Below are positions 8,988-27,578 of a DNA stretch of 64,000 bases, piece after piece. The number at the start of each line of letters is the position of its first letter. The stretch's first letter is position 1. Under the pieces are notes generated by a model. The model was given only the letters and a program-made list of their open reading frames with translations. It searched no databases and was not told the origin of the DNA. Origin of the DNA: Klebsiella quasipneumoniae subsp. quasipneumoniae (lineage in GTDB: Bacteria > Pseudomonadota > Gammaproteobacteria > Enterobacterales > Enterobacteriaceae); the NCBI RefSeq assembly GCF_020525925.1, contig NZ_CP084876.1, forward strand, positions 1,426,001 through 1,490,000, written 5' to 3'. A program made the translations under genes and the position numbers.

Positions 8988-9105
8988 ATCAACGCCTGGC
9001 TCCTTTGTTGTCCAGAGAGTGTTGCATCGGCTGGGCGGCAGGTTGACGACCAGGCCACGCGATATTGTACGCATAAAGCGTGTTGCTGTCGGTTAATTGT
9101 CGAGG

Positions 9106-10117
9106 CTATAGAGTGCAGGAGGGCTTCTGCCAGGCAACCACGCAATTCCTACCTGCTTTTTTTGCCTGGTACAGGGCGCCGTCGGCACGGTTAAGTCATT
9201 CATTCTATACCGTTTTAGGATCCTCCGTTGTGGCAAGACCGATACTGATCGTAACGCTTTAGGCCAGTTTAACCCTGCTGCTGACGTCGCCTGGGTTGAT
9301 AATGGTCTGGCGGGTCCGCTCGGCGATGAGTTGCGCCTTCTGTTGGCCCACGTCAGACAGTAATAGCGCAAATTCCTCGCCGCCTGTTCTGGCCACAATA
9401 TCATCTCTGCGAACCTGATCCTGAAGTACCCCGGCCACATACTGAATAACAAGATCTCCCTGAAAGTGACCATATTTGTCATTGATGCGCTTGAAATGAT
9501 CGATGTCGCATAACAAGTTAGACAATGGTTTTGCACAGAGACCCGTTGCATTTTTTTATCAGCACAAGGTAAAAATAACGGCGGTTATACAGCTGCATCA
9601 GATAATCACGAATCGAGTTCTGATAGGCATTCTCATATTTATTGTTGGATAATTGATAAAGATTAAACGCATTAAGGAAAATAATGATAATAAAGATCAG
9701 AGTGCCCAGCGTTTCGAAAAGCCTCGCTTTATAACCTGTGTTCTCGCTAGCGACATCTGCGGTTGTTAAGAAAGAGAAGGTTAAGATATAAACGAAGTAG
9801 TAAAAATAGATTCCTGTCCAGAATATATTTCTGAAGCGGGTTAATGCCATCGTCGTGAAAAAAAAGAACGTCCATATGTAAGCCATTATATTACTGGCTA
9901 AGCGAATCGTTGGTTCATACAGGTGGATTGAGGAAAATCCAACAATCAGGACGATAGCTAAGGTCAGGCTTACACAGGCAAAGGTAATAATAATGTGATT
10001 ATGGGAGGCCAGCAGGCGATGCGAACGAAACTTGAATACTAATGCCGCGGTGATGATTTAGGTGAGTGTTAACGCGTTGCGGTAAAAATAGATGAGTCTG
10101 ATGGCCTGTTCATTAGG
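9106..10117 (-). pseudogene. Decayed membrane-anchored diguanylate cyclase (GGDEF)
   Basis: Fragments of one gene in shifting frames. The 5' part (about 9518-10117) encodes several hydrophobic segments (RSHRLLASHNHIIITF, MAYIWTFFFFTTMALT) followed by the start of a GGDEF domain (YLMQLYNRRYF). A frameshift near 9520 leads to a second frame with CDIDHFKRINDKYGHFQGD and the signature GGEEF. Another shift near 9262 leads to VTISIGLAT ... ADGALYQAKKAGRN, the usual GGDEF ending, with two in-frame stops, finishing at 9106-9108. A further stop (10058-10060) breaks the membrane region. So at least two frameshifts and three stops: not a functional c-di-GMP synthase. Confidence 0.88.
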
Positions 10118-10385
10118 TCATACCTGTCAGGGCAAGAAAACTATGTTTTTATGATCGTGAATATCAATATTTTGAATGTCTGTCGGGAGTGAGCAGTATG
10201 CTTTTCGTGCGGTCGCTGAGGACGATGTCATTACGTTTTACAACTCGTCTTTTCCTGTGAGTTGTTCATTTTAGTCGCAAAATTATAACTGGTGTTTTCC
10301 TCTTTTTAAAAAGAGGAATGGCGCCACAGGTTTTATATCTATAAATAAATCACTTTGTGCGTTAACAGGAAGGGGGCATTGATGA
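10118..10385. other. Junction region with a 22-bp perfect palindrome
   Basis: 268 bp of AT-rich DNA between the GGDEF pseudogene and the first island-type sequence. At 10297-10318 there is a perfect palindrome, each 11-base half TTCCTCTTTTT and its complement, with no spacer. The hsdM fragment begins abruptly about 70 bp later. It could be a terminator (A/T at its centre), a protein-binding site or an excision scar. Confidence 0.45.
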
Positions 10386-12549: not shown

Positions 12550-13650
12550 ATGCCGGTTCATCATGCAATCTGGCGAGTGGGGGAGAACCCTCAACCGCTG
12601 ACCATCAGCAAACTCGCCAGCGAGCAACTGTTGGAGAAGATGATTTTAAACGATCCGACGATTCTCTCCGATCAGTGGATGATCATCGGCCATCAGGAAA
12701 ATACGCTCGATAAAGGGCGTATCGACCTGCTGGCGATTGCGCCGGATGCCTCGCTGATCCTGATTGAGCTCAAGCGCGACCGCACGCCGCGTGAAGTGGT
12801 CGCGCAGGCGTTGGATTACGCTTCCTGGGTGGATGATTTAACCGCCGATCGTTTGTCGCAAATTTATGAAAAATTCTCCGGCGGCGGCAATCTGGGCGAT
12901 GCATTTCAGCAACGCTTCAATGCTGAACTTGAAGACGACGCCATCAACAAGTCACACCAGATAATCATCGTCGCGGCAGAGCTGGACCCTTCTACCGAAC
13001 GCATCGTCGACTATTTGAGTAAATACGGAATCTCGATTAACGTACTGTTCTTCAAGGTGTTCCAATATGGTGACGAGCAGTTCCTGAGCCGAACCTGGCT
13101 TATCGATCCTGGCGAAACGCAAACCAATGCCGCACAGGCCACGGCTACCAGCGCCAACGCGAAAGAACCCTGGAACGGCGAGTTTTACGTCTCGTTTGGC
13201 GATTCAAACAGTCGCGTCTGGGAAGAGGCGCGTCGCTATGGTTTTATCAGCGCGGGGGGCGGGAGTTGGTACAGTCAGACCTTAAAACAGCTTCAGCCTG
13301 GCAACCGCGTCTGGGTGAAAATACCGGCAACGGGTTACGTCGGCGTCGGTATTGTACAGAGCGGCGTTGAGCCTGCCGGCAGCTTCACCATCAACACTGA
13401 CGACGGTGAAAAGCGGGCGATGGATGTGCTTAAGTACAGCGATCTCTATCACCTGAATGCGGATGACCCCGACAAGTCTGAGTATTTTGTCCCAGTGAAG
13501 TGGCTGGAAACCCGCAGTGAGCAAGAGGCGGTAAACGAAGTCGGATTCTTCGGCAATCAAAACACAGTGTGTAAGCCCACCACGCCGAAATGGCGTCACA
13601 CCGTCGAAAAATTAAAACTCTATTTTAAAAGCTGGGATATTCAAGTGTAA
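12550..13650 (+). CDS. PD-(D/E)XK nuclease with a C-terminal PUA/EVE-like domain
   Basis: 366-residue protein. The N-terminal half (about 20-170) has a NucS/DUF91-like nuclease core with D59, E73-L-K75 and Q86-x3-Y90, the PD-(D/E)XK arrangement. The C-terminal half (about 190-366) starts GEFYVSFGDSNSRVWEEA and contains GNRVWVKIPATGYVGVGIV, which resembles PUA/EVE-type folds that read modified bases. Nuclease plus modified-base reader would make a type IV-style restriction enzyme; the second domain is assigned by eye and is uncertain. It starts 10 bp after hsdS, so it rode in the type I operon, yet its frame is intact. A terminator follows at 13668. Confidence 0.75.
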   Translation: MPVHHAIWRVGENPQPLTISKLASEQLLEKMILNDPTILSDQWMIIGHQENTLDKGRIDLLAIAPDASLILIELKRDRTPREVVAQALDYASWVDDLTADRLSQIYEKFSGGGNLGDAFQQRFNAELEDDAINKSHQIIIVAAELDPSTERIVDYLSKYGISINVLFFKVFQYGDEQFLSRTWLIDPGETQTNAAQATATSANAKEPWNGEFYVSFGDSNSRVWEEARRYGFISAGGGSWYSQTLKQLQPGNRVWVKIPATGYVGVGIVQSGVEPAGSFTINTDDGEKRAMDVLKYSDLYHLNADDPDKSEYFVPVKWLETRSEQEAVNEVGFFGNQNTVCKPTTPKWRHTVEKLKLYFKSWDIQV

Positions 13651-13667
13651 AATCTCAAACTAACGAG

Positions 13668-13686
13668 AGGCCTGAAAAGGCCTTTT
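13668..13686 (+). terminator. Terminator after the nuclease gene
   Basis: AGGCCT (13668-13673) pairs with AGGCCT (13678-13683) around a GAAA tetraloop, followed by TTT. Short, but placed 17 bp after the stop, separating the hsdMS-nuclease remnant operon from the ATPase-helicase operon. Confidence 0.7.
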
Positions 13687-13847
13687 GTCATTTCTTCACC
13701 GGATAGATTCTTATCGAGACGCGCAAGGGAGAGTCGCGCCCGCCTGTTTTACGCTAGCGGTCTGCTAGTGACAGCCAGCTCGCAGGGAGTGAGCTGACCG
13801 TGTTTAACGCCCTACCGAGGGGCGTAAATTGCATACAGAGGTTAATG

Positions 13848-16800
13848 ATGGCTAAAGCGCACTCCACGCCGCTCAACGATATTGCGATTATCGCTGCGAA
13901 TTTAAAAGACCGTTATAAAAACGGCTTCCCTGTTTTGAAAGAAATTGTGCAAAACGCGGATGATGCGCAGGCATCATCCTTAATCTTTGGCTGGAGCCCG
14001 GGCATTGCCGGATCCGATCATCCATTACTGGGTGATCCTGCGCTTTTCTTTATCAATAATGCGCCGCTGACACTCGAAGATGTAGAGGGGATCCTCTCCA
14101 TTGGCATTGGCACCAAACCGGGCGACGAAAATGCGGTGGGGAAATTTGGGCTCGGTATGAAAAGCCTGTTCCATCTCGGTGAAGTATTCTTTTACCAGTC
14201 TTTTGACTGGCATACCGCCTCGGCCAAATCAGACGTTTTTAACCCCTGGGACAGTTACAGGTCTGCCTGGGCCGAGGTGAGCGTGCAAGATAAAGTTCGT
14301 CTTGAGGATGAAGTCCGCGCAATTACCCAAAATGAGTGTGATGGTTATTTCGTTGTCTGGGTTCCGCTGCGTTCAGAGAGTATCTATCAGGCCCGGCAAG
14401 ATGATGAAAACTTTATTATTGTTGGCGAAGACTATCGTTATGAGGTGCCTGATTTTATCACTGACCGGCGATTAGGGGATAAGCTCGCCAGCCTTTTACC
14501 GCTGATGAAAACCTTGCAGGACATTGAGCTGGTTGTGAAAACAGGGCAGGGGTATCAGCGTCAAATACATATCTCGCTGCCTGAAAAGGCGACTCGCCCA
14601 CAATTTACCAATCTTAATGGTGCTGGGGAATGGCAAGGCAACATTAGCGTTCAGCATGCTGGATTGCCGGACCCTCAGCAAAAATACTACGTCGGGCATG
14701 AGGTTTTGCTGAATACGCCTGAGTTTTCTGCCCTGAAATCACAACGCACCTGGCCATTCAGTTATTCACGAGAAGGTAAGAAGACCGCGGATAAAGCGCT
14801 GCCTCATGCCGCTGTGGTGATGCTGGCGGAGAAAGTACCTGAAGGAGAGGCAACGCTGACGGTGGAATGGGCGGTGTTTTTACCTTTAGGTGAGCAGGAC
14901 ACCGCGCAGCATGCGCAGAAACAAAAATTCTCTCTTTCTGGTCAATACTCGTATCAAATTATTCTGCACGGCTACTTTTTCATTGATGCCGGGCGAGTGG
15001 GTATCCAGGGGTTGGCTACACTCACCAGCGCCACGCCGTTATTCAATGCCCCTGATTCTCCTGCTCAGGAACAACTGGTTCAGGAATGGAACCGCTGTCT
15101 TGCTACTCAGGGAACGTTGCCGTTATTACCGAAAGCGCTTGCCTCTCTTATGTCGCTTATTCACGCCGGAGATGCGGAAAAAGCGGCAATTTCGGATGGT
15201 GTGCGTAGAGCTTTGCGCAACAATAATGCCTGGCTCCATTGGGTAACGTTGTACCATCTGTGGGTATGCGAACTAACGCGGGATGGAAGTCAGTGGTATT
15301 TAGTTGATGCGAACACTCCCGTTCGTCTATTGCCTGCCACACCTTCAGGTGAAGCGCATCGCCCCTGGGAAGTGCTGCCCGCGCTGGAAAGCCTGGGTGT
15401 AACGCATAGATTTATCGATGAAACGCAGCCGAATATCTATAACGAATTTAAAAGTAAGTGGCAGTTGTCAGAGATTCAGGCGTTGCTACAGGCCATACCG
15501 TCAATGGTGTTTACAGCACCAAAGCTCACGAACTATCTCAATCAACTGCTGAAAGCGTTGCCGATTGCGTCGGATAATTATTCCCGTGACCTGATGTCGT
15601 TGCTCAGGAAAACGTTCTCTGACGTGCCGTTGGTGGAGCTTTCACGAAACCAGACGGCGATCGGTGAATTGATGGCGCTCATTCGGCCGACCTGGCGTTA
15701 CAGAATTGCCATTGACCGTCAGGAGCAGGCCCTGTGGGAAACGCTTGGCCGTACGGTTATGGATACGCTGCTGGTGCCCGCTTTTCTCGATAACAGTAAA
15801 GAGCCCGCCAGTGCCTCTTTAAACTGGGAGACCGTCGGGAGCCTGCTGCAGGCGATGCAGGCGCAGGCTTCTGCCAGCGATGACTTTGAAAAACTGGTGC
15901 GGGATTTTATCGGCAAACTCTCCGCTCCCGATCGACTGGAGTTGTACCGCCGGTTTGATATATTGAAGATCTTTAAGGTTTCGCAGCCCACCGGTGCGCC
16001 ATACCTTGAAACGCGCCGTCATCTGCTTGACTTAAAACAAAAGCGCAGAGTCTTCAAACGTGGAGGCAGCGCCAACTTTGGCGTGGGGTTAAGCGCATTG
16101 TTGCAGCAGGCGCTGATCGAAAAAGAGGTCGTCCTGATCACCAATGATATTAATCAGACCCTATTTGGTGGTTCAGAATATTCAGAAGCGCAGGAGTGTG
16201 ACAGCGAGGGTGTGGTCCATCTGCTTGAGCTTCACCCTCGTCTGGATTTGCCGGCAAAACGCATTGACTTGCTTAATAAAATGGCTGCGGACGGTGACAA
16301 ATTCGGCCCCAGAGAGCGGCTTGCCTATCGCTATCTGATGCACGGTAATTCGGCTGATACCGGCGAGACTGAATTGTGGAAAGCGGGTAAGGCGCATCCT
16401 GTATGGGCAAAAATACTTTCTGATGCTAATTCACAACAGCGTAAGTGGACCATTATTTCGCCAGAGATTGAGCAGAACCTCGGGCTGACTCCCGGATTCG
16501 AGAAGGCGCTCAGGCTTGATAGTGTAACGCCGGATCATGTGATCCAGCGCTTCAAAGAAAGCCTAGAATATCTGGAGTTTGATGACTTATCTGCAGAAGA
16601 TGCGGAAGAAGTTCTGTTGCACATTGGGCGCGCTATGGGTGAAACAATGTGGCGGCAGATGGCGCTTCATCGTAGGGAAGGCAAAGAGGGGTACATATCC
16701 CTTGATGAGCGTTGTTTCTTACGTGGGGGGCGCATTGAACTGCCCACTGAATTGAATGACAACGTGACGTTCATCCAGTCCGCCAGCCAACCGGAAGTGC

Positions 16801-19800
16801 AGGAGCAGCAGCGCAAATATCTGCCAATGGTGAACGCTGAGCATGCAATCATGCTGGCTTTATCTGAGCCGAATCCGGGACAATTCTGCGATTTTATCCT
16901 GCAATTGTTAATGCAGCCGACGAATGACGTGTCTTCAGAGAGAGCGTTCAACAACCTGCGCAGCCAGAAATGGCTTTTGCACCGTGGTGTGGCGATAGCA
17001 CCAGAAAATATTCTGGATATCAGCGCGAAAGACTATCCGGAGATCGCGAAGCTGACTGAAGCGACGCCGCGCATCGCTCTGCTTGAGGATATTGTTCTAT
17101 CAGATGACGCTAACCGTGCGCTGAGTCCATGGGTCGTGCGAGGTAAGGCTGCGTTTTACAAAGCGCTCACTGTGGCAGGTACACTTCCGCTTTATGCTAT
17201 CGGCAGCAGCTTACGTCTCACTGACACGATTATTCTTCAGGCCAGTGACAGATCTTACGCGTTTGATAACTTTGACGGCTGGCGGCTTTTAATTGAGTGC
17301 CTCAAAGGTGCTGAGTCACTTGAGGGCAATGAGGCCATCAATGCGCTGAGTTTTGCGCATCCGGTGACAGACAAGATAGTTTCCAGCTACCGACGTCTTG
17401 TCGACAGCATGAATCCAACCCAAGGCGTTGAATTGCGTAAAGCGCTGTTAAGCTCGCTGTGTCATACCCATTCAGAACCCTCCAGCGTACTGCGTTCAAT
17501 GCAGCTCAGGACGGCAGCGGATACCTGGGCGTTAGCCACCGATCTCTGTTATGGCGTAACGGGCGCAGAACGTAGTGCTGTTCTACATGATGACGACTGG
17601 GCGTATTTGTCCCCCTGGCTGCAGGCTAATGACTTGTCGGTAGACAGTACTGAGTCCGAAGGGCATCTCAGTCATGTTGAGTATTCTGCCAGTGTCTTAA
17701 GGGAATACTTTGCGCCCTGGGAACGTTGGGTTCCACGTAAGGCAATCGCTGCGCTGCTGGCCTTGCTGGCGGGGAATCGTAAGGTTCGTAAGCTGTGTGA
17801 AAGTTACCTGGGGCTGCAAAGTTATGCCCTGTTCGTGAATGAACTGTCGCAAGACAGTAAACCCTTAACCAACCATGACGCTCACTTTGCTGGGTTAACG
17901 CTCTTACAGTGTATTGAGAAATATGCCTTTGCCGTGAAGGTTTACGAAGAAAACACGTTGCAGGTTCACTCACTGTTCCAGGAACGTTTGACCGTGGCGC
18001 TGGCAACTGATCTGGATACGATCTTTGTGGGTCAGCACGGCTACGCTTTTTATACCGGCCAGGCACCGCAAATCTTCATTCGCCGATTTTCCCCAGACCA
18101 GTACACGCCTCAGCAACTTTTGGCGATTCTGAAACGCAGCACCAGTTGGCTGCAGGAAGGTATTTATCTGCAGAGGGCAAGGCTGGACACGCTCTGGCAA
18201 TCCTTTGAGCAGGCCGAGCAGCTGGATGTGAATATCGCTCGCGTCACAATTCTGAATAGCATCGTAGAACGCCTGAAAACGCTGGGCCTTAAAAACTCTC
18301 AGCTTAACGTTTTAATGAGAGCCTATGAGAGTGAGCTTCACTCTCTTGCTGAAAGTAGTGACGGCAAGTCGCTCCACAGCCCGAGGCTCACTGAAATTGT
18401 CTATGACATTGCGAATGCCATCCGAGATCGCCCTGAGCTGCAGGCTGAAATATTAACAGCGGTCAGAAAGCGTATAGAGGATGCTCAGTATCAGCCATCA
18501 AGCGTTCCTTTTGAGCTGTTCCAGAATGCCGATGATGCGGTAGAAGAGTTGTTTACGCTGGATAGCGATGCCCGTCATGAGCGGGGGCACCAGAAATTTA
18601 TGGTGAAAGAGCAAAACGGCGGGTTGTCGTTCTTCAACTGGGGTCGAGAAATAAACCGCTTCCAGAGCGTGAAAAATGAGCAAGTCGAGAATGTTCATGA
18701 TGGCTACAAAAACGATCTGAAAAAAATGCTGGCGCTTTACCAGTCAGATAAAGAGCAGGGCGTTACCGGCAAGTTCGGTCTTGGCTTCAAAAGCTGTCTG
18801 CTGGTGTCTGATAATCCTTACCTATTGTCGGGGCGGCTGGCGACTAAAATAGCGGGTGGAATTGTGCCCGAGTCCTGTGACGCTGAAAGCTATAAACAAC
18901 TAAATCAACTCACTGAAAGTGCCGCGATAAATGGCTTGTCACCAACTCTTGTGTATTTGCCACTGCGCCAGCATATGCAAGCGGAAATGGTGTTAAAAGA
19001 TTTTACTCTGTATGCAGGTTTACTAAATCTTTATGCACGTAACTTGCGCCAGATTGTCATTGATGAGCATGAATGGCGCTGGGAGCCTGCTCAGTATAAA
19101 CGTATTCCTGGTCTGTCATTGGGCAAGGTTATGTTGCCGAACAGCAAGGGTGTTCAGTCACCAGTGCGAGTGGCGGTTTACCAGACCGAAATCGATTATG
19201 AACGCTGCCATCTAGTTTTCCAGGTCACGCGCAGGGGCCTGAGAGGTTTTGACACTCATATTCCGCGATTGTGGAATTTGTCTCCGTTGATGAGTGATAC
19301 CCGGCAGGGTTTTTTGATTAACGCTGGATTTGAGGTTGATATTGGTCGGCGCCAGTTGGCTATTGAAGCTGAACGTAACCGGGGCATAATTCAGAAAGCA
19401 GGGGCGAAAGTTCATTCTCTGCTGGAATTGCTCTGGCGTGAAACTGAGTATAACTGGGAGGCGCTGGTTGCTGAGTGGGAACTAAGCCCAGAATTAACTC
19501 ATAGTCAGTTTTGGGAAAGCATATGGGACGTAATGTCTACAGGCATCAGTAACGACGCTACCGCGATGGAAAATGAAAAGTTGCTACAGCAACTTTACGA
19601 AAGCGAAAACGGCATCATGAGCTTCTATCGCTCATATCCCGCGCTGCCCAACGGATTTAAAGAGCAGGCTGCCGGGCTGATAAAGTGGAGCGACAGAGTG
19701 CGTTGTGCGGATGAACTGGTTTCTCGTCTGGCGAGTTCACTGATTTATCTCCCTGCGTTTCAGGCATTGCACAGTGCACAGTGCCTGGTAGCAGACACGA

Positions 19801-21353
19801 CGGGAGGCAAACTTAAAGTCGAAACTAAACTGTCGCTTGAATCGTTATTAAGTGCGTCATTGCCGGATAAACAGGGCGTTGATATCCAACATTTGGTTCC
19901 ACGGGATGCTGAGAAGCTGGCAGTCGTATTTAACGAAGAGTTCGATAAGCGACTAGGTGAACTGACAGGCTGGCAGGATAAAATTGAGGCTTTCAGAAAA
20001 CAGCTGACGAACTTGCATGTGCTGACACAAGCAGGCTCTACACGCCCGATTAGCCAAATTTTGCTCGGTAACACTCCTTGTGCCGAAAAAAATGAACGGT
20101 TGATCTCTGGGTTTGCCCCTGCCGATGCCATCATTTCATCATCTTATTCTACGCAGGCGTGTGAATTTATTGTTTATTGCAAGCGCAGAAGTCAGGGATA
20201 TGTTTTTGAGGATTTAGTCAAATGGGCAAAGCGCAAAGACCTGGCGGCTGATAATCAAAAGCGGCAGGCATTTTGTCGTTTTCTGATTGAAGGCATAGAA
20301 GGTGAAAAACTGGCGGGTATGCTGATGGAAGAGATACCGCCAGAGTGGTTGCTTGAGCTTAAGCTGCGTCCAGGTGCATTTCCGGCAGACTGGCACTGGA
20401 GCAATAATGACATTGCCTCTCTCCTGCAGGGACGGTTGCTGACTAATAGCGACAGAACAAGGGCATGGGAGCGCGAGATTCGCGAGACACCGAAAGAATA
20501 CGAACCGTTGGTGACGCCTGCTGAGGCGATGCAAAAAATACACCGCTGGTGGGAAGAGAACCAGCAGGAGGAGTTGGCGAAATACAATACCCGACTCTAT
20601 CCGGAAGGTTGGTTTGACTGGGAAGCTTTAAAAAATGACTCTGACGATCAGAGTTCGCGTCTGGCGTTATTGAAACTGCTTTATCTTGGCTCATGCCAGA
20701 CCATTGGCCGGACTCAGGAAGAGCAACACCGTGCCGCGATTGAGCATTTTGAGGACAAAGGCTGGTGGGATACGTTTGTTAATCCTGATGCTGCGCAGCA
20801 GTGGCTGGATGTGATGGATGAATATCTAAACGAGTCTTTTGACGGTGATAGGTATCGTATCTGGTTGCAGATATTACCGTTGTATCGTTTTTCCAGACAC
20901 TTAGATACCTATCGCGAACTGCTGGATATGTCGGAAGCGTTCCTTGAGGATATTGGGGATTTACTGCGACCGGCATCCAGTTCCAGGCTTTCGGGAACCG
21001 GGATAGGTGTCGTTCCAGAATTACGTGCAACGCTTGGAACCGGGGTGAACTTCATTTTCCGTGAACTCGTGCGTAATAACGTGTTTACCGACTCTAATAT
21101 TCATCAATATTGCTTCTCTGCACCAGAGCGCGTCAGACGTCTGTTGTGGGCGATGGAGTTTGAAGAAATAAATGTTAAGCAGTCGTCTGCCAGTGATTCT
21201 ATTCTGCTGTGGACGTTTTTCAGCAAACACCTTGGTGAGGAAAATGCGACCTTTAATCATTGTTTCGACATACCGCTGCGCATTTTAACCAGTGACGAGA
21301 AAAGCTCGCTTCGCATTGAAATATTTGGGCAGGATCCCCTGGAGTACGTATGA
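13848..21353 (+). CDS. Giant sacsin-like protein with two HSP90/GHKL ATPase sites
   Basis: 2501-residue intracellular protein without membrane segments or signal peptide. Two separated GHKL nucleotide-binding sites are visible. Site 1: E32-IVQ-N36-AD-D39 (N box) and GKFGLGMKS (98-106). Site 2: E1556-LFQ-N1560-AD-D1563 and GKFGLGFKS (1641-1649). The N-box Glu, Asn and Asp needed for Mg-ATP binding are present in both, so both may be active. This NADDA/GKFGLG pattern is that of sacsin and MORC-like HSP90 ATPases. The remaining 1400 residues between the sites and about 850 after them have no motif I can name. The start at 13848 has AGAGG six bases before it; an adjacent ATG at 13845 and a GTG at 13800 are alternatives. 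The stop overlaps the helicase start (ATGA). Likely a defence ATPase; inferred from context. Confidence 0.85.
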   Translation: MAKAHSTPLNDIAIIAANLKDRYKNGFPVLKEIVQNADDAQASSLIFGWSPGIAGSDHPLLGDPALFFINNAPLTLEDVEGILSIGIGTKPGDENAVGKFGLGMKSLFHLGEVFFYQSFDWHTASAKSDVFNPWDSYRSAWAEVSVQDKVRLEDEVRAITQNECDGYFVVWVPLRSESIYQARQDDENFIIVGEDYRYEVPDFITDRRLGDKLASLLPLMKTLQDIELVVKTGQGYQRQIHISLPEKATRPQFTNLNGAGEWQGNISVQHAGLPDPQQKYYVGHEVLLNTPEFSALKSQRTWPFSYSREGKKTADKALPHAAVVMLAEKVPEGEATLTVEWAVFLPLGEQDTAQHAQKQKFSLSGQYSYQIILHGYFFIDAGRVGIQGLATLTSATPLFNAPDSPAQEQLVQEWNRCLATQGTLPLLPKALASLMSLIHAGDAEKAAISDGVRRALRNNNAWLHWVTLYHLWVCELTRDGSQWYLVDANTPVRLLPATPSGEAHRPWEVLPALESLGVTHRFIDETQPNIYNEFKSKWQLSEIQALLQAIPSMVFTAPKLTNYLNQLLKALPIASDNYSRDLMSLLRKTFSDVPLVELSRNQTAIGELMALIRPTWRYRIAIDRQEQALWETLGRTVMDTLLVPAFLDNSKEPASASLNWETVGSLLQAMQAQASASDDFEKLVRDFIGKLSAPDRLELYRRFDILKIFKVSQPTGAPYLETRRHLLDLKQKRRVFKRGGSANFGVGLSALLQQALIEKEVVLITNDINQTLFGGSEYSEAQECDSEGVVHLLELHPRLDLPAKRIDLLNKMAADGDKFGPRERLAYRYLMHGNSADTGETELWKAGKAHPVWAKILSDANSQQRKWTIISPEIEQNLGLTPGFEKALRLDSVTPDHVIQRFKESLEYLEFDDLSAEDAEEVLLHIGRAMGETMWRQMALHRREGKEGYISLDERCFLRGGRIELPTELNDNVTFIQSASQPEVQEQQRKYLPMVNAEHAIMLALSEPNPGQFCDFILQLLMQPTNDVSSERAFNNLRSQKWLLHRGVAIAPENILDISAKDYPEIAKLTEATPRIALLEDIVLSDDANRALSPWVVRGKAAFYKALTVAGTLPLYAIGSSLRLTDTIILQASDRSYAFDNFDGWRLLIECLKGAESLEGNEAINALSFAHPVTDKIVSSYRRLVDSMNPTQGVELRKALLSSLCHTHSEPSSVLRSMQLRTAADTWALATDLCYGVTGAERSAVLHDDDWAYLSPWLQANDLSVDSTESEGHLSHVEYSASVLREYFAPWERWVPRKAIAALLALLAGNRKVRKLCESYLGLQSYALFVNELSQDSKPLTNHDAHFAGLTLLQCIEKYAFAVKVYEENTLQVHSLFQERLTVALATDLDTIFVGQHGYAFYTGQAPQIFIRRFSPDQYTPQQLLAILKRSTSWLQEGIYLQRARLDTLWQSFEQAEQLDVNIARVTILNSIVERLKTLGLKNSQLNVLMRAYESELHSLAESSDGKSLHSPRLTEIVYDIANAIRDRPELQAEILTAVRKRIEDAQYQPSSVPFELFQNADDAVEELFTLDSDARHERGHQKFMVKEQNGGLSFFNWGREINRFQSVKNEQVENVHDGYKNDLKKMLALYQSDKEQGVTGKFGLGFKSCLLVSDNPYLLSGRLATKIAGGIVPESCDAESYKQLNQLTESAAINGLSPTLVYLPLRQHMQAEMVLKDFTLYAGLLNLYARNLRQIVIDEHEWRWEPAQYKRIPGLSLGKVMLPNSKGVQSPVRVAVYQTEIDYERCHLVFQVTRRGLRGFDTHIPRLWNLSPLMSDTRQGFLINAGFEVDIGRRQLAIEAERNRGIIQKAGAKVHSLLELLWRETEYNWEALVAEWELSPELTHSQFWESIWDVMSTGISNDATAMENEKLLQQLYESENGIMSFYRSYPALPNGFKEQAAGLIKWSDRVRCADELVSRLASSLIYLPAFQALHSAQCLVADTTGGKLKVETKLSLESLLSASLPDKQGVDIQHLVPRDAEKLAVVFNEEFDKRLGELTGWQDKIEAFRKQLTNLHVLTQAGSTRPISQILLGNTPCAEKNERLISGFAPADAIISSSYSTQACEFIVYCKRRSQGYVFEDLVKWAKRKDLAADNQKRQAFCRFLIEGIEGEKLAGMLMEEIPPEWLLELKLRPGAFPADWHWSNNDIASLLQGRLLTNSDRTRAWEREIRETPKEYEPLVTPAEAMQKIHRWWEENQQEELAKYNTRLYPEGWFDWEALKNDSDDQSSRLALLKLLYLGSCQTIGRTQEEQHRAAIEHFEDKGWWDTFVNPDAAQQWLDVMDEYLNESFDGDRYRIWLQILPLYRFSRHLDTYRELLDMSEAFLEDIGDLLRPASSSRLSGTGIGVVPELRATLGTGVNFIFRELVRNNVFTDSNIHQYCFSAPERVRRLLWAMEFEEINVKQSSASDSILLWTFFSKHLGEENATFNHCFDIPLRILTSDEKSSLRIEIFGQDPLEYV

Positions 21354-24010
21354 AAATGACATTTCAGCAGGGCCAACAAGTACGGCATGAACGCTTTGGG
21401 CTGGGGACGATTGAACTCCTGAGGGAAAATACCGCACTCATTCGTTTCGAGTCGAGTTTTGAAGAGCGTCCTCTTTCCGAGCTGGAACCAGTACGCAGCG
21501 CACAAGATGCTTTAGCTGAAGGTAATTATGACGATCTGCGTGAAGTCCTTGCGCGCAGTCAGGCGCTTGCGATCCGCTCCATCAATGATAGTTGGGGGGT
21601 GTTCTCCACTTCACGTATCAACCTGCTGCCGCATCAGTTATGGGTATGTCACCGCGTGTTACGGCAATGGCCGGTACAAAAGCTGATTGCTGATGACGTA
21701 GGGTTGGGGAAAACCGTTGAGGCAGGGCTGATCCTTTGGCCGCTGCTGGCGAAAAAACGTGTACAGCGTCTGTTGGTTTTAGCGCCTGCATCGTTAGTAC
21801 CGCAGTGGCAGGAGCGTTTGCGGCAGATGTTTGATATTCGTTTGTCCCTCTACTCCACGGAAATTGATACTGAGCGATCAGATTACTGGAATACGCATCC
21901 CTGGGTGGTCGCTTCATTGCCGACACTGCGAAAAGATATTAATGGCAGGCACGAGCGAATGCTCAAAGCAGACGACTGGGACTTGCTGATCATCGATGAA
22001 GCACATCACCTTAACTCGCTAGAAGATTCGGGGGCGACTCAGGGCTATCGATTTGTGCAGAAGCTTATCGATCACGGTAAGTTCGCCTCGCGGCTTTTTT
22101 TCACAGCTACCCCGCATCGCGGGAAAAATTACGGCTTCTTTGCCCTGCTGAGGCTTTTACGTCCAGACTTGTTTGACGTGAATAAGCCATTTGAAACTCA
22201 GCAGCATCATGTTCGGGATGTTGTGATTCGCAATAATAAGCAAACCGTCACGAATATGGACGGTGAACGTTTGTTCAAGACCGTCAACGTGACCTCACAG
22301 ACCTATCATTTTTCTGAGGCTGAACAGTCATTCTATGACCGGCTCACACGATTTATTCTTTCAGGGCAGGCCTACGCTTCGTCGCTGAGCTCCGCAAACC
22401 AGCAGGCTGTGCAACTGGTGTTAACTGCAATGCAGAAACTGGCGGCAAGTTCGGTAGCGGCAATTTATGCCGCAATAAATGGGCGTATTGCTAGGCTCGG
22501 GGAAAATCAGAAAAAGCTACAGGCGCTGAGTGATGAAATGAATGCCATCATGAGTGATTCTCAGGCCCCGGATCTCGATGATGCCTACATTGCGCTTGAA
22601 AGCGAATATGTTCAAATGTCTGCTTCGGTTCAACTTATGCAGAATGAGCTGCCCATGCTTGAAGAGCTGCAGGCGTTGGCGGGGAATGTAGAATCGGAAA
22701 CGAAAATCCAGACCCTACTTAATGTCCTGGAAACCACGTTTCTTAATCGCACCGTCGTATTCTTTACTGAATATAAAGCGACACAGGCTCTGCTAATTAA
22801 TACTCTGAATGCTCGCTTTGGCTATGGCTGTGTCAGCTTTATCAATGGCGAAGGACGGCTGGAAGGGATTTACAATAAACAAGGTGTCAAAACGTCATGG
22901 AGTATGGATCGATACCATGCTGCGGAGCAATTTAAAAGCGGGCAGGTACGCTTTATTGTTTGTACAGAAGCCGGTGGTGAAGGTATTGATTTGCAGGACA
23001 ACTGTTATTCCATGATTCATGTTGATCTGCCGTGGAATCCGATGCGTCTTCACCAGCGTGTAGGGCGACTCAATCGCTATGGCCAAAAACATCAGGTTGA
23101 AGTTATTACTTTACGCAACCCCGATACTGTAGAGTCCAGAATTTGGGATCTATTAAACAGCAAAATAACCACAGTTATGCGTTCTTTGGGCGACGCGATG
23201 GAGGAACCGGAAGATCTGTTGCAGCTTATTCTTGGGATGAGTGATAAAGGGTTTTTCAATTCACTTTTTGCTGATGGCCTGATACAAAAACCAGAGACTC
23301 TAAATACATGGTTCGATTCCAGAGCAGGGACCTTCGGAGGTCAGTCGGCGGTCAGCGTAGTTAAGGGGCTCGTTGGTCATGCTGATAAATTCGAATATCA
23401 GAATTTACAGGAAGTCCCTAAGTTGGATCTAAATAACATGTATAGTTTTTTAGAAAATATGCTCAAATTGAATGGCCATCGTCTTGAGAATGAGGGGGGG
23501 ACACTTTCTTTCGTTACACCGAAAGAGTGGATAACCCAGTTTGGGATTAAGAAAAAATATAATAACATGACGTTTGACAGAATATCTGAAGACAAGTCAC
23601 TTGAAGTGCTTGGCGTTGGGCACGTTATTTTAAATAATGCGATCGCGCAGGCAGAGAAATTCAATGCGTCAACGGCGGTAGCTCGGGGAATTTCTGCGCC
23701 TTTACTCATTTATATTCTTCGCGATCAAATTACTGGTGACAGTAATGTACATTCATTCACCGTTGTAGGTGTATTACTGAATGACGAACCGAAAGTTCTG
23801 GTGAACGACGACCTTGTCCATCAATTATCTGTTATTTATGAAGGTATGCCTAAGGGATCACCAGTTGTAAAACTTGATAGTACCTATCAAATTGATTCTG
23901 CCAGTGATCTTAAAATTGCAGAGATATCGTTAGAACAGGCAATTGCTTCGTTAAATTTGCCTTACGAAAAAGTCAGTTGGAACCACACAGCAACATTTAT
24001 ACCTCAATAA
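21350..24010 (+). CDS. SNF2-type DEAH helicase/translocase
   Basis: 886-residue superfamily 2 ATPase. Walker A is DDVGLGKT (115-122), motif II DEAH (216-219), motif III LFFTATPHRG, and the C-terminal RecA lobe ends in motif VI HQRVGRLNR (568-576). These spacings match RapA/DrmD-like SNF2 proteins, with an insertion between lobes (about 330-440) that looks helical. The N terminus (1-50) resembles an SH3-like beta barrel (QQVRHERFGLGTIELL). The C-terminal 250 residues have no named motif. The ATG overlaps the upstream gene's TGA, so the two proteins are translationally coupled and probably form a complex that moves on DNA. It is intact and followed by a strong terminator. Confidence 0.88.
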   Translation: MKMTFQQGQQVRHERFGLGTIELLRENTALIRFESSFEERPLSELEPVRSAQDALAEGNYDDLREVLARSQALAIRSINDSWGVFSTSRINLLPHQLWVCHRVLRQWPVQKLIADDVGLGKTVEAGLILWPLLAKKRVQRLLVLAPASLVPQWQERLRQMFDIRLSLYSTEIDTERSDYWNTHPWVVASLPTLRKDINGRHERMLKADDWDLLIIDEAHHLNSLEDSGATQGYRFVQKLIDHGKFASRLFFTATPHRGKNYGFFALLRLLRPDLFDVNKPFETQQHHVRDVVIRNNKQTVTNMDGERLFKTVNVTSQTYHFSEAEQSFYDRLTRFILSGQAYASSLSSANQQAVQLVLTAMQKLAASSVAAIYAAINGRIARLGENQKKLQALSDEMNAIMSDSQAPDLDDAYIALESEYVQMSASVQLMQNELPMLEELQALAGNVESETKIQTLLNVLETTFLNRTVVFFTEYKATQALLINTLNARFGYGCVSFINGEGRLEGIYNKQGVKTSWSMDRYHAAEQFKSGQVRFIVCTEAGGEGIDLQDNCYSMIHVDLPWNPMRLHQRVGRLNRYGQKHQVEVITLRNPDTVESRIWDLLNSKITTVMRSLGDAMEEPEDLLQLILGMSDKGFFNSLFADGLIQKPETLNTWFDSRAGTFGGQSAVSVVKGLVGHADKFEYQNLQEVPKLDLNNMYSFLENMLKLNGHRLENEGGTLSFVTPKEWITQFGIKKKYNNMTFDRISEDKSLEVLGVGHVILNNAIAQAEKFNASTAVARGISAPLLIYILRDQITGDSNVHSFTVVGVLLNDEPKVLVNDDLVHQLSVIYEGMPKGSPVVKLDSTYQIDSASDLKIAEISLEQAIASLNLPYEKVSWNHTATFIPQ

Positions 24011-24028
24011 ATTATTTTATTATAGATA

Positions 24029-24064
24029 CCAACTCCACCTTTAAAACAAAGGTGGAGTTGGTTT
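24029..24064. terminator. Strong bidirectional terminator
   Basis: 14-bp perfect stem, CCAACTCCACCTTT (24029-24042) with AAAGGTGGAGTTGG (24048-24061), 5-nt loop, T run on the plus side and A-rich sequence on the other. It separates the convergent helicase and integrase genes. Confidence 0.93.
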
Positions 24065-24068
24065 ATGA

Positions 24069-25258
24069 TTATTCCTTATGGAGACGCATTTCACAATTTT
24101 GAATATAATCACCATACCACTTCATCATTTCCCTACGACCATCCAGATACTGGGCATGGTTATAAGTACCACGAATCGAGTTTTTATCTACATGTGCTAG
24201 CTGTGTTTCAATCCAGGCCGTGTTAAAACCTTGCTCATGAAGAATGGTACTCATAGTGTGGCGAAAACCATGGCCGGTAGCTCTTTTATCATATCCAATT
24301 CTCTTCAAAACCATGTTAACACTGGCTTCACTCATCGGTTTATTAACATCATTTCGTCCAGAGAAAATAAACTGATAGCTTCCAGTGAGTTGTTTCAGTT
24401 GCTGAAGGGCTTGCAAGGATTGGCTAGATAGCGGGACGAGATGCGTTCGCTTCATCTTCATCCTGTTTTAGGTATTTCCCAGAGACTGTTTTCGAAGTCA
24501 ATTTCGCACCATTCAGCCATTCGTAACTCTACTGTTCTTAATCCAGTTAGCATCACCAAACGAGTCGCGAGCAGAGTTATTAAACTACCTGAATAATTTG
24601 ATAATTTCTGTAAAAATTCAGGTAATTCAGGCACTGTCAGAAAGGGATAATGATGTTTTTCATATCCTTGCAATGCGCTGGCAAGATCTGCGGCTGGATT
24701 GTATTCAGCACGCCCCGTGACTATTGCGTATCGAAAGACTTCACTGCAGCGTTGGCGAACTTTACTGGCTAACTCTGGCGCGCCACGTTTTTCTATACGC
24801 TGAAGAACGGATAAAAGCTCTAGCGGCTTGATTTCGTTAACAGGCCTGGAACCTAAATGAGGGAAAACATTATTTTTGAATCCACGATTAACATAATCGG
24901 CATAGTTTTTTGACCATCCAGAGATTTTCGCGTTGTACCACTCTGTAGCTATTGCCTCAAAGGTATTTGTGATTGATCGTTTTTTGGCGAGTAGTTCTGC
25001 TTTTTTTACTTCACCTGGATCTTGATCGTTAGCCCGAATTCTCCTTGCGTCATCGCGCCTGGTTCGTGCATCAGCCAGAGAAATATCTGGGTATGTACTA
25101 AATGATAATTTTTTCTCTTTACCAGCAAATCTGTATTTCATCCGCCAGTATTTTGAACCGTTAGGGTTAACCTGGAGATACAGTCCACCACCGTCAGCGA
25201 GTTTATAGGCTTTGTCTCTGGGCTTTGCAGTCTCGACCTGACGCGCATTTAAGGGCAT
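24069..25258 (-). pseudogene. Frameshifted P4-type tyrosine integrase
   Basis: The 5' part (24458-25258) gives the N-terminal arm-binding domain (MPLNARQVETAKPRDKAYK ...), the core-binding domain, and the first catalytic Arg in TGLRTVELRMAEW, then stops after EIPKTG. The 3' part (24069-24461) continues in another frame with MKMKRTHLVPLS, HGFRHTMST (HxxR), QLAHV and the tyrosine region GTYNHAQYL. A single-base loss near 24460-24470 explains the break. The active site is thus split over two frames and the enzyme is probably dead. It reads away from the 3' end of argW, the normal placing for an integrase of a tRNA-borne island. Confidence 0.9.
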
Positions 25259-25433
25259 TTGGGGGCCTCATTTTTCATTGAACAGGATAAGCCCCCACTA
25301 AGGCCCCCAAACGTTTATTGATTCACGTTGAGATGGGTAGATATCGGTTGACATCACACAGCCAGAACAGAGGGTTTATCACTGATTATAAGGGGATTTT
25401 ATTGAATTCGGTAGACGTCAGGAGAGTTGTATA

Positions 25434-25508
25434 TGGCGTCCCCTGCAGGAATCGAACCTGCAACTAGCCCTTAGGAGGGGCTCGTTATATCCATTTAACT
25501 AAGGGGAC
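25434..25508 (-). tRNA. argW: tRNA-Arg (CCT anticodon), argW
   Basis: On the minus strand the 75-nt gene folds as a cloverleaf: acceptor GTCCCCT with AGGGGAC, anticodon stem AGCCC/GGGCT around the loop CTCCTAA (anticodon CCT, bases 25473-25475), TpsiC arm CAGGTTCGATTCCTG, and an encoded CCA at 25434-25436. Location next to yfdC matches E. coli argW, a well-known integration site (CPS-53/intS). Confidence 0.95.
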
Positions 25509-26527: not shown

Positions 26528-26816
26528 TTCACGGCCCTCGCTGACAATTTATCTAGTTAAAGCGTAGCGGCTTTCCCTGGCGACTGGCTGGGGATACTCT
26601 TAAATCGCAAAAATGGTTACGCCAGATTTTTATCGCTCCGCTAGAATAGGAGCCCCGCGATCTCGTTATTCCCAGGCTATGATCAAATCAACAACTTGGG
26701 TGATATAGACATCGTTCAACGTGCTGTTACAATCGCTCACATCTGTACGGGCGGAAACGTTGTCTTTCCGTCATGGATGGCAACTCGCGATAGCCATAAA
26801 AACCAGGGAGACATCT

Positions 26817-27578
26817 ATGAATTATCGCCTGTCGGCGCTTGCGCTTGGCGCCACATTGCTGGTGGGATGTGCCAGTTCCAGCTCTGGCGATCGGCCGCAG
26901 GGGCGCTCAGACCCGTTAGAAGGGTTTAACCGCACGATGTTTGACTTCAACTTTAACGTGGTTGATCCTTACGTGCTTCGTCCCGTCGCGGTGGCATGGC
27001 GTGACTATGTTCCGCAGCCGGCGCGCAATGGCTTAAGCAACTTCACCAGCAACCTGGAAGAGCCGGCGGTGATGGTGAACTCCTTCCTGCAGGGCGACCC
27101 GTATAAAGGTATGGTCCACTTTACCCGCTTCTTCCTGAACACCATCCTCGGGATGGGGGGTCTGATCGATGTCGCCGGGATGGCTAATCCGCAGCTGCAG
27201 CGCGTTGAACCGCATCGTTTCGGCAGTACGCTCGGCCACTATGGCGTCGGCTATGGTCCGTATGTGCAACTGCCATTCTACGGCAGCTTTACCCTGCGTG
27301 ACGAAGGCGGCGATATGGCCGATGGCCTCTATCCGGTGCTTTCCTGGCTGACCTGGCCGATGTCAATCGGCAAATGGGCGGTAGAAGGGATTGAGACGCG
27401 CGCTCAGCTGCTGGATTCCGACGGCCTGCTGCGTCAGTCTTCCGATCCTTACATTCTGGTGCGTGAGGCTTACTTCCAGCGTCATGACTTTATCGCCAAC
27501 GGCGGTAAGCTGACCCCGGCGGACAATCCGAACGCCCAGGCCATTCAGGATGAACTGAAAGATATCGATTCACAGTAA
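26817..27578 (+). CDS. mlaA: Phospholipid-asymmetry lipoprotein MlaA (VacJ)
   Basis: 253-residue outer-membrane lipoprotein that removes phospholipids from the outer leaflet and passes them to MlaC in the Mla retrograde pathway. The signal peptide ends at the lipobox LVG-C18; the mature part has the family motif DPLEGFNRTMFDFNF and the hydrophobic donut-forming helices. The ATG at 26817 follows a GGGAG site; upstream in-frame starts give no signal peptide. Monocistronic, convergent with fadL, sharing its terminator. Confidence 0.95.
   Translation: MNYRLSALALGATLLVGCASSSSGDRPQGRSDPLEGFNRTMFDFNFNVVDPYVLRPVAVAWRDYVPQPARNGLSNFTSNLEEPAVMVNSFLQGDPYKGMVHFTRFFLNTILGMGGLIDVAGMANPQLQRVEPHRFGSTLGHYGVGYGPYVQLPFYGSFTLRDEGGDMADGLYPVLSWLTWPMSIGKWAVEGIETRAQLLDSDGLLRQSSDPYILVREAYFQRHDFIANGGKLTPADNPNAQAIQDELKDIDSQ

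Follow-up and report, generated by a model that had tools for sequence, protein, structure and literature searches.

The window analysed here is a stretch of 64,000 nucleotides of Klebsiella quasipneumoniae subsp. quasipneumoniae, and the locus of interest is a pair of genes within an island, set between the following features.

13848..21353, plus strand: giant sacsin-like protein of 2501 aa, start ATG at 13845 or 13848
21350..24010, plus strand: SNF2-type helicase of 886 aa, kin of RapA, BrxHII and DrmD
12550..13650, plus strand: intact PDC-S11 candidate (PADLOC, 545 bits) with a NucS-like N terminus, a neighbour outside the pair
13663..13688, plus strand: terminator-like stem-loop of 11 pairs upstream of the pair
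24028..24062, plus strand: terminator-like stem-loop of 15 pairs downstream of the pair
24072..25261, minus strand: tyrosine integrase of the island, broken, in two frames
25434..25508, minus strand: tRNA-Arg(CCT), likely insertion site of the island

As the original prediction stated, a 2501-residue protein overlaps an 886-residue SNF2 helicase: both frames are open and share 4 bases, the mechanical reading frame of the giant beginning at GTG 13800. The terminators proposed on both sides were recovered as the two stem-loops, which are the two longest stems of the region, while the total of terminator-like sites (17 versus 14.0, sd 3.6, in shuffles) is not in excess. The proposed tRNA island likewise holds, with tRNA-Arg(CCT) adjoining the tyrosine integrase; a second copy of the 22-base tRNA piece was looked for and not found. 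The G+C content is 49.0% in the pair and 56.2% and 58.7% in the flanks. Near the left side of the island, a remnant at 9093-10200 on the minus strand resembles a broken diguanylate cyclase (GGEEF recognised by eye).

A related island, L078, is a 27 kb contig from IMG/VR with 93% identity to the window in the giant and 98% in the helicase. In one row it carries the three hsd genes (hsdR, hsdM, hsdS), PDC-S11, the pair and an integrase gene whose frame is open, so that a contig classed as 'viral' displays a defence island with restriction-modification (RM) genes and an integrase. Compared with it, the window has no detectable hsdR, its hsdM is reduced to residues 364-490, and hsdS and the integrase are each split into two frames; the pair is full length, as had been claimed from its open frames among broken neighbours. 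Both genes of the pair are under purifying selection (dN/dS against L078 of 0.117 for the giant and 0.064 for the helicase), and PDC-S11 is also constrained (0.054) though the adjoining RM genes are broken. E. coli NN5 carries EcoAI-type hsdRMS followed by a PDC-S11-like nuclease gene and other cargo, without the pair. As the pair remains open beside broken RM genes and is absent from NN5, it is separable cargo. The single row of L078 could nevertheless suggest that the pair is an accessory, inert alone, of another island system, be it type I RM together with PDC-S11 or some variant of DISARM. Given its constraint beside broken RM genes, the arrangement in NN5, and a commonest neighbour family found in 13 of 78 loci, we judge this unlikely, and reject RM accessory as the main reading.

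The giant contains two ATPase domains.

13878..14297, plus strand: first sacsin/HSP90-type ATPase domain, residues ~11-150, with N36 and GKFGLGMKS (Pfam, NCBIfam, sacsin structures)
18435..18947, plus strand: second ATPase domain, residues ~1530-1700, with ELFQNADDA including N1560, and GKFGLGFKS (invariant motifs, TmtA model)

Sacsin is a human neuronal protein. The giant is matched by Pfam SACS in two stretches (1.8e-26, 93.9 bits for a cut-off of 32.8) and by NCBIfam P_loop_sacsin (103.7 bits for a cut-off of 50), and its profile finds the solved sacsin structures 5v44-5v47 with E values from 1e-23 to 4e-22. Having both a SACS domain and GHKL motifs, it belongs to the sacsin ATPase family. 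MORC2 structures are reached at no better than E 0.004, where sacsin gives 1e-23; of the earlier label 'sacsin/MORC-like', the first half is therefore retained and the second set aside as much the weaker match by profile. In an alignment of 30 sequences (the window and 29 relatives, 21-91% identity), the key residues of the N-box and glycine-box are invariant at both sites, including E32, Q35, N36 and D39 in the first and E1556, Q1559, N1560, D1562 and D1563 in the second. N36 and N1560, like K121 of the helicase, are present where predicted. Among 59 giants longer than 2300 aa from public genomes, 57 contain both motif sets by a pattern drawn from the invariant columns, a stricter pattern undercounting them (24 of 59); in the other two, L012 and L030, it detects the second set alone. 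Eukaryotic sacsin similarly repeats HSP90-like ATPase modules in one giant chain, but has three of them, whereas the bacterial giant has two sites followed by predicted C-terminal DNA-acting modules, and neither DnaJ nor HEPN domains were found in it by Pfam.

The same ATPase type links the giant to TmtA of PADLOC, which we take to stand for Tiamat. Tiamat is known as a single-gene system and is not known to have a helicase partner. Residues 17-129 align to the best TmtA model (E 1e-21), and the second site is matched at 1555-1665 (E 7e-5). These matches are confined to the ATPase domains, with about 80-115 residues per site, while the six TmtA models cover 1302-1655 positions; likeness to TmtA does not extend over most of the length, and membership in Tiamat was rejected.

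The helicase displays the motifs of an SNF2 motor.

21350..21499, plus strand: putative Tudor-like N-terminal domain, with a kept V-x-H-x-x-x-G-x-G...R-F pattern
21692..21715, plus strand: motif I, DDVGLGKT (K121), invariant in 19 helicases
21995..22009, plus strand: motif II, DEAHH, A218 nearly invariant and the others invariant

K121 is invariant in the 19 helicases aligned, the window's one among them, and motifs I, II and VI are present in 53 of 54 relatives. The nearest solved relative in the PDB is RapA. The plan of BrxHII and RapA, with a Tudor-like N terminus (a single Tudor in BrxHII), an SNF2 core and C-terminal alpha+beta domains, as described in PMC12839542, is probably common to our helicase and that of BREX type 3. 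In the phylogeny, however, the helicases of the pair form one clade (25 rows against 15 related helicases, support 100/100), and the BREX-3 helicase L190 falls outside it. No PglZ, BrxC or PglX was found among the window ORFs scanned, and with this separate clade BREX type 3 was rejected.

The relationship with DISARM is more intricate. The PADLOC DrmD model PDLC02634 is the best for this helicase and matches it over the full length with 903 bits, yet the NCBI DrmD models give 308.2 bits for a cut-off of 610 and 177 for 950. None of drmA, drmB and drmC was found among the window ORFs scanned (those outside 26721-27578 and from 150 aa upwards, each run on one or more of the libraries), and for the DISARM neighbour set as a whole, methylase included, the neighbour ORFs scanned proved to be other genes or without match. 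The giant is not known among the components of DISARM. DISARM membership was thus rejected on the missed NCBI cut-offs and the core genes not found. The PADLOC name and a drmC annotated in Trichormus at some 4.5 kb from the pair would favour the accessory reading in its DISARM form, while the NCBI scores speak against it. In that Trichormus locus (L002 770-7476, 23192-23847), two large upstream genes have no PADLOC match. As a side observation, PDLC02634 'DrmD' may call DISARM parts where the pair's system alone is present.

The giant ends in a C-terminal (CT) module.

20481..21353, plus strand: CT module, residues 2212-2501, predicted HhH-GPD glycosylase-like fold (structure prediction)
21033..21074, plus strand: candidate HhH-like hairpin and next helix, L2396-G-x-G2399...R2405-E2406-L-x-R2409 (fold and motif)

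The last ~290 residues are confidently predicted to fold like HhH-GPD DNA glycosylases, the predicted structure having the fold that defines this superfamily; from fold and motif, the L2396-R2409 segment would be the HhH hairpin. G2399, R2405 and E2406 are kept in 54 of 54 sequences and D2474 in 53. The catalytic Lys/Asp usual in HhH-GPD glycosylases are absent: with positions placed by motif rather than by superposition, the Lys position holds N in 20 of the 54 sequences, C in 15, H in 13, P in 4 and S in 2, and columns 2421-2428 contain no conserved acidic residue (2427 is E in 12 of 54). At the sequence level, the CT profile had no credible match in the PDB and Pfam, and hhalign against seven HhH-GPD proteins chosen by motif gave 0.3%. 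Foldseek with both models reached E 0.56 and 2.3 at best. The Ogg family passed its cut-off in 1 of 32 and 4 of 369 genomes, too few members for a profile comparison. The CT module differs from Ogg2, AGOG, MutY and the queuosine salvage enzyme DUF2419 in lacking both the catalytic Lys/Asp and a sequence-level match. Separately, an Ogg-like glycosylase gene (L137 531-2034, in the same genome as L010) adjoins a gene resembling DNA adenine methylases, and a QueC-like gene is close by, the last two names being judged from sequence.

Two readings of this module have to be weighed. It may have no chemistry of its own and serve as a reader of bases or lesions or as a docking adaptor, the helicase being the effector that removes or obstructs the complexes of phage replication or transcription. 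The loss of the catalytic Lys/Asp would agree with this, as would the company of the CT module, which accompanies the helicase in the loci read and is once a gene of its own beside it (303 aa, between giant and helicase, L208 7420-8331, cyanobacterial); kinship with RapA, the closest solved relative, and BrxHII suggests a helicase effector too. On the other hand, enzymes of DarT and nuclease type fill the CT position in relatives, as detailed below, and the conservation of R2405, E2406 and D2474 (54, 54 and 53 of 54) would fit a structural role and a working site equally well. We give this adaptor reading a somewhat less than even chance. As for the narrower choice between cutting and merely reading bases, it is near even, the lack of the known catalytic pair tilting it slightly towards reading.

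How constant is the pair? A first contig scan with a single protein as query returned no match, and neither did a near-identity search for the pair in 5,426 E. coli genomes. Scanning species genomes by alignment yielded at least 585 candidate stretches, from which the best 80 of 193 relatives were kept, giving 71 loci. In 8 of these 71, the giant reaches the contig end or comes within 138 bases of it. All 63 uncut loci of this set have a downstream partner, either the helicase (56) or a DarT/DarG-like replacement (7); the original prediction had asked for the co-occurrence of the two genes to be tabulated. The helicase is next on the same strand in 54 of the 63, within 100 nt in 51 (31 overlapping) and at 677-819 nt in three; in the remaining two it is in two pieces (L055) or starts before the contig end (L061).

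The 71 loci of this set (best 80 of 193) come from 12 named phyla and five records without phylum, many being metagenome-assembled genomes, and Deinococcus plasmids add one further phylum. On plasmids, the giant adjoins the helicase in 5 of 5 records with 43.8-50.2% helicase identity (in one by coordinates only), the other plasmid helicases, from 35 rows listed of 51 further records, being at 26-33%. A Synechocystis plasmid giant without helicase is cut short beside insertion sequences, and a Haematobacter plasmid giant has neither helicase nor CT module. The shortened Synechocystis giant lies near fragments of a Druantia-type (DruE) helicase (L004 17770-20006). Helicase clusters are named from a Hafnia sp. 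MAG at 100% identity and from Klebsiella aerogenes at 99%. With at most two candidates scored per genome, the centre genome was the single one of 369 gammaproteobacterial genomes in which the helicase exceeded 400 bits (1517 bits), and the next four reached 354-396 bits. The module is rare and scattered.

The relatives further reveal that the end of the giant varies. In the first search the CT module was found in 94 of 109 proteins; among the other 15, five stop before it and ten, the last ten matches, are sacsin-like rows whose named members are eukaryotic. In seven cyanobacterial loci of the 71 (best 80 of 193), a DarT domain stands in the CT place and is followed by a macrodomain gene. Pfam DarT matched the two tails tested (4e-25 and 4e-27) and all seven tails align; the macrodomain gene matches Pfam Macro and, in the three tested, DarG as best NCBI model with 169-177 bits, below the cut-off of 250. 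A search with one DarT-type protein (best 120 of 231 proteins) gave 114 new identifiers, the query's own protein included. By precomputed Pfam, 37 of these 114 carry DarT and 17 carry DUF3883/NO VEIN, and the CT module is found in 0 of the 37 (query counted) and 0 of the 17. The remaining 60 comprise 50 with the CT module, three that stop early and, assigned by eye, two with a DUF3883-like tail and five with another D...EIK tail. DUF3883 is described as a novel REase domain (PMC3710099), and its D...E-V-K motif is kept in 17 of 17 tails. The C-terminal tails of P0297, P0301, P0302, P0303 and P0305 display a GGD...EIK pattern, possibly another nuclease end.

A DUF3883-type query against 386 cyanobacterial genomes gave 10 matches in 8 genomes, of which three concern the DUF3883 end alone and seven are giant loci that were read: four with DarT and a macrodomain gene, one with DUF3883 and neither partner, and two with the CT module and helicase. 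Among the DarT loci, two repeat L063 (same genome) and apparently L070, which leaves five new loci of the seven. Cyanobacterial relatives carry a DarT or PD-(D/E)XK-type tail in the CT position, with no helicase where the neighbourhood was read. Because the CT module is swapped for such tails, the giant appears to be a platform, driven by ATP, whose DNA-acting ends can be exchanged. The 'effector or clamp-like sensor' proposed earlier may accordingly be narrowed to an ATP-operated platform of this kind; the CT module, its coupling with the helicase and the swap for DarT or nuclease-type ends did not figure in the original prediction.

The cyanobacterial variant shares with DarTG a DarT domain and a DarG-like macrodomain gene, but differs in that DarT is fused to an ATPase giant; in the window's pair, DarT had no Pfam match. 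This resemblance and the mobile setting raise the question whether the pair mainly stabilises its own element by addiction, as DarTG-type toxin-antitoxin pairs can. We hold this to be highly improbable: the macrodomain gene was seen solely alongside DarT (in the seven loci from the best 80 of 193 and in the later cyanobacterial loci), in a survey of this one antitoxin family, and in the window the pair is kept even though the integrase is broken.

The surroundings of the pair were compared with those of arbitrary stretches. From 64 loci, 406 flank ORFs of 200-1300 aa were collected and 97 were sampled from 50 loci, four being dropped as the system's own (one helicase piece and three macrodomain genes); the control drew on 217 ORFs in 20 arbitrary stretches of six of the genomes, with 100 sampled and the first 93 used. 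At a threshold of 1e-10, the 93 flank ORFs match 456 PADLOC families and the 93 control ORFs 91, a ratio that exaggerates the difference because it counts families and not proteins, because the flank sample is longer (47,931 residues for 97 ORFs versus 40,703 for 100) and because the six control genomes are a subset. Flank matches include type I RM, CBASS cyclase, DndD and a BREX-type helicase; control matches include mads_3, PDC-M23B, PDC-S02 and PD-T4-6. Representatives of recurrent neighbour families match models of BREX/DISARM-type helicase, type IIG and type I RM, PDC-S68 and Mokosh. A phage gene was rejected, with 0 matches among 50,697 phage records, as was a phage origin via IMG/VR, two of its three loci being weak matches of 381 bases and the strong one, L078, an RM island. 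Sporadic, mobile and lying in defence-rich neighbourhoods, the pair has the context of a defence system, and the earlier picture of an intact ATPase-helicase operon is supported, as one that is mobile, conserved and set in such a context.

Kinship with sacsin and HSP90, together with a glycosylase fold and a RapA-like helicase that would suit repair, could also point to a machine for stress response, chaperoning or DNA repair that islands carry. Such a non-defence role appears improbable in view of the rarity of the module (one gammaproteobacterial genome of 369 with a helicase of the clade, two candidates at most being scored in each), its mobile setting with defence-rich flanks, and the DarT/DarG-like and nuclease-type replacements.

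The statement that the pair matches no named system also held: none fits in PADLOC 2.0.0 (2023) or NCBIfam 20.0, the name DrmD failing at the level of DISARM membership. Neither the giant-helicase pair nor the exchangeable ends were found in the open-licence literature searched, most subscription journals being outside this scope, including in the portions available of PMC12458937, PMC12629846, PMC13092281 and PMC4425180. Kindred systems are known. Prokaryotic MORC/paraMORC operons with SF2 helicases were described in 2008, and the accessible portion of that work (PMC2292703) presents them as laterally mobile conflict operons that likewise combine a GHKL ATPase and an SF2 helicase. Unlike them, the giant is of sacsin type with two ATPase sites in one chain of 2501 aa and an apparently exchangeable DNA-acting C terminus, and a separate nuclease or methylase gene is not a recurrent feature of most of the pair's loci. 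VcSduA, a GHKL ATPase fused to a nuclease, protects against phages, and the control of its nuclease by the ATPase is the hypothesis of that paper (PMC12137116, in extract). As kindred systems exist and the pair and its exchangeable ends are undescribed in the literature searched, we regard the pair as a conflict system of the GHKL-ATPase kind whose domain plan is new.

Taken at the sequence level, the swapped DNA-attacking ends suggest an unnamed anti-virus machine, and we consider it rather probable that the pair is an anti-invader module with exchangeable ends. The defence role is backed by context; for the mechanism, we infer that the long ATPase body would sense phage DNA or an infection by-product and shut with ATP like an HSP90 clamp, licensing the DNA-acting end. 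The glycosylase-fold module would then grip or flip, and perhaps remove, a base as the helicase travels along the DNA, with the result that phage DNA would be stalled or damaged. DarT and nuclease versions would place other DNA-damaging ends behind the same switch. In its most specific form, a sacsin-type double ATPase would sense infection and license interchangeable DNA-modifying ends, the CT module being an enzyme of glycosylase fold whose active site (R2405, E2406, D2474) has been rebuilt and which would excise or flip phage bases as the SNF2 motor feeds DNA; this version we propose only tentatively.

If the defence reading is true, a widespread unnamed module would be added to bacterial immunity, and its swapped ends, namely glycosylase fold with helicase, DarT with macrodomain, and nuclease-type tails, would offer one switch with several outputs to study. 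For annotation, library 'DrmD' calls may mislabel the pair's helicase as DISARM. The finding bears on the role of bacterial sacsin relatives and on how GHKL ATPases control DNA-acting partners. Should the CT module indeed remove or flip bases, this would represent ATP-gated base excision as a form of immunity, and prokaryotic kin of human sacsin would act in antiviral defence.
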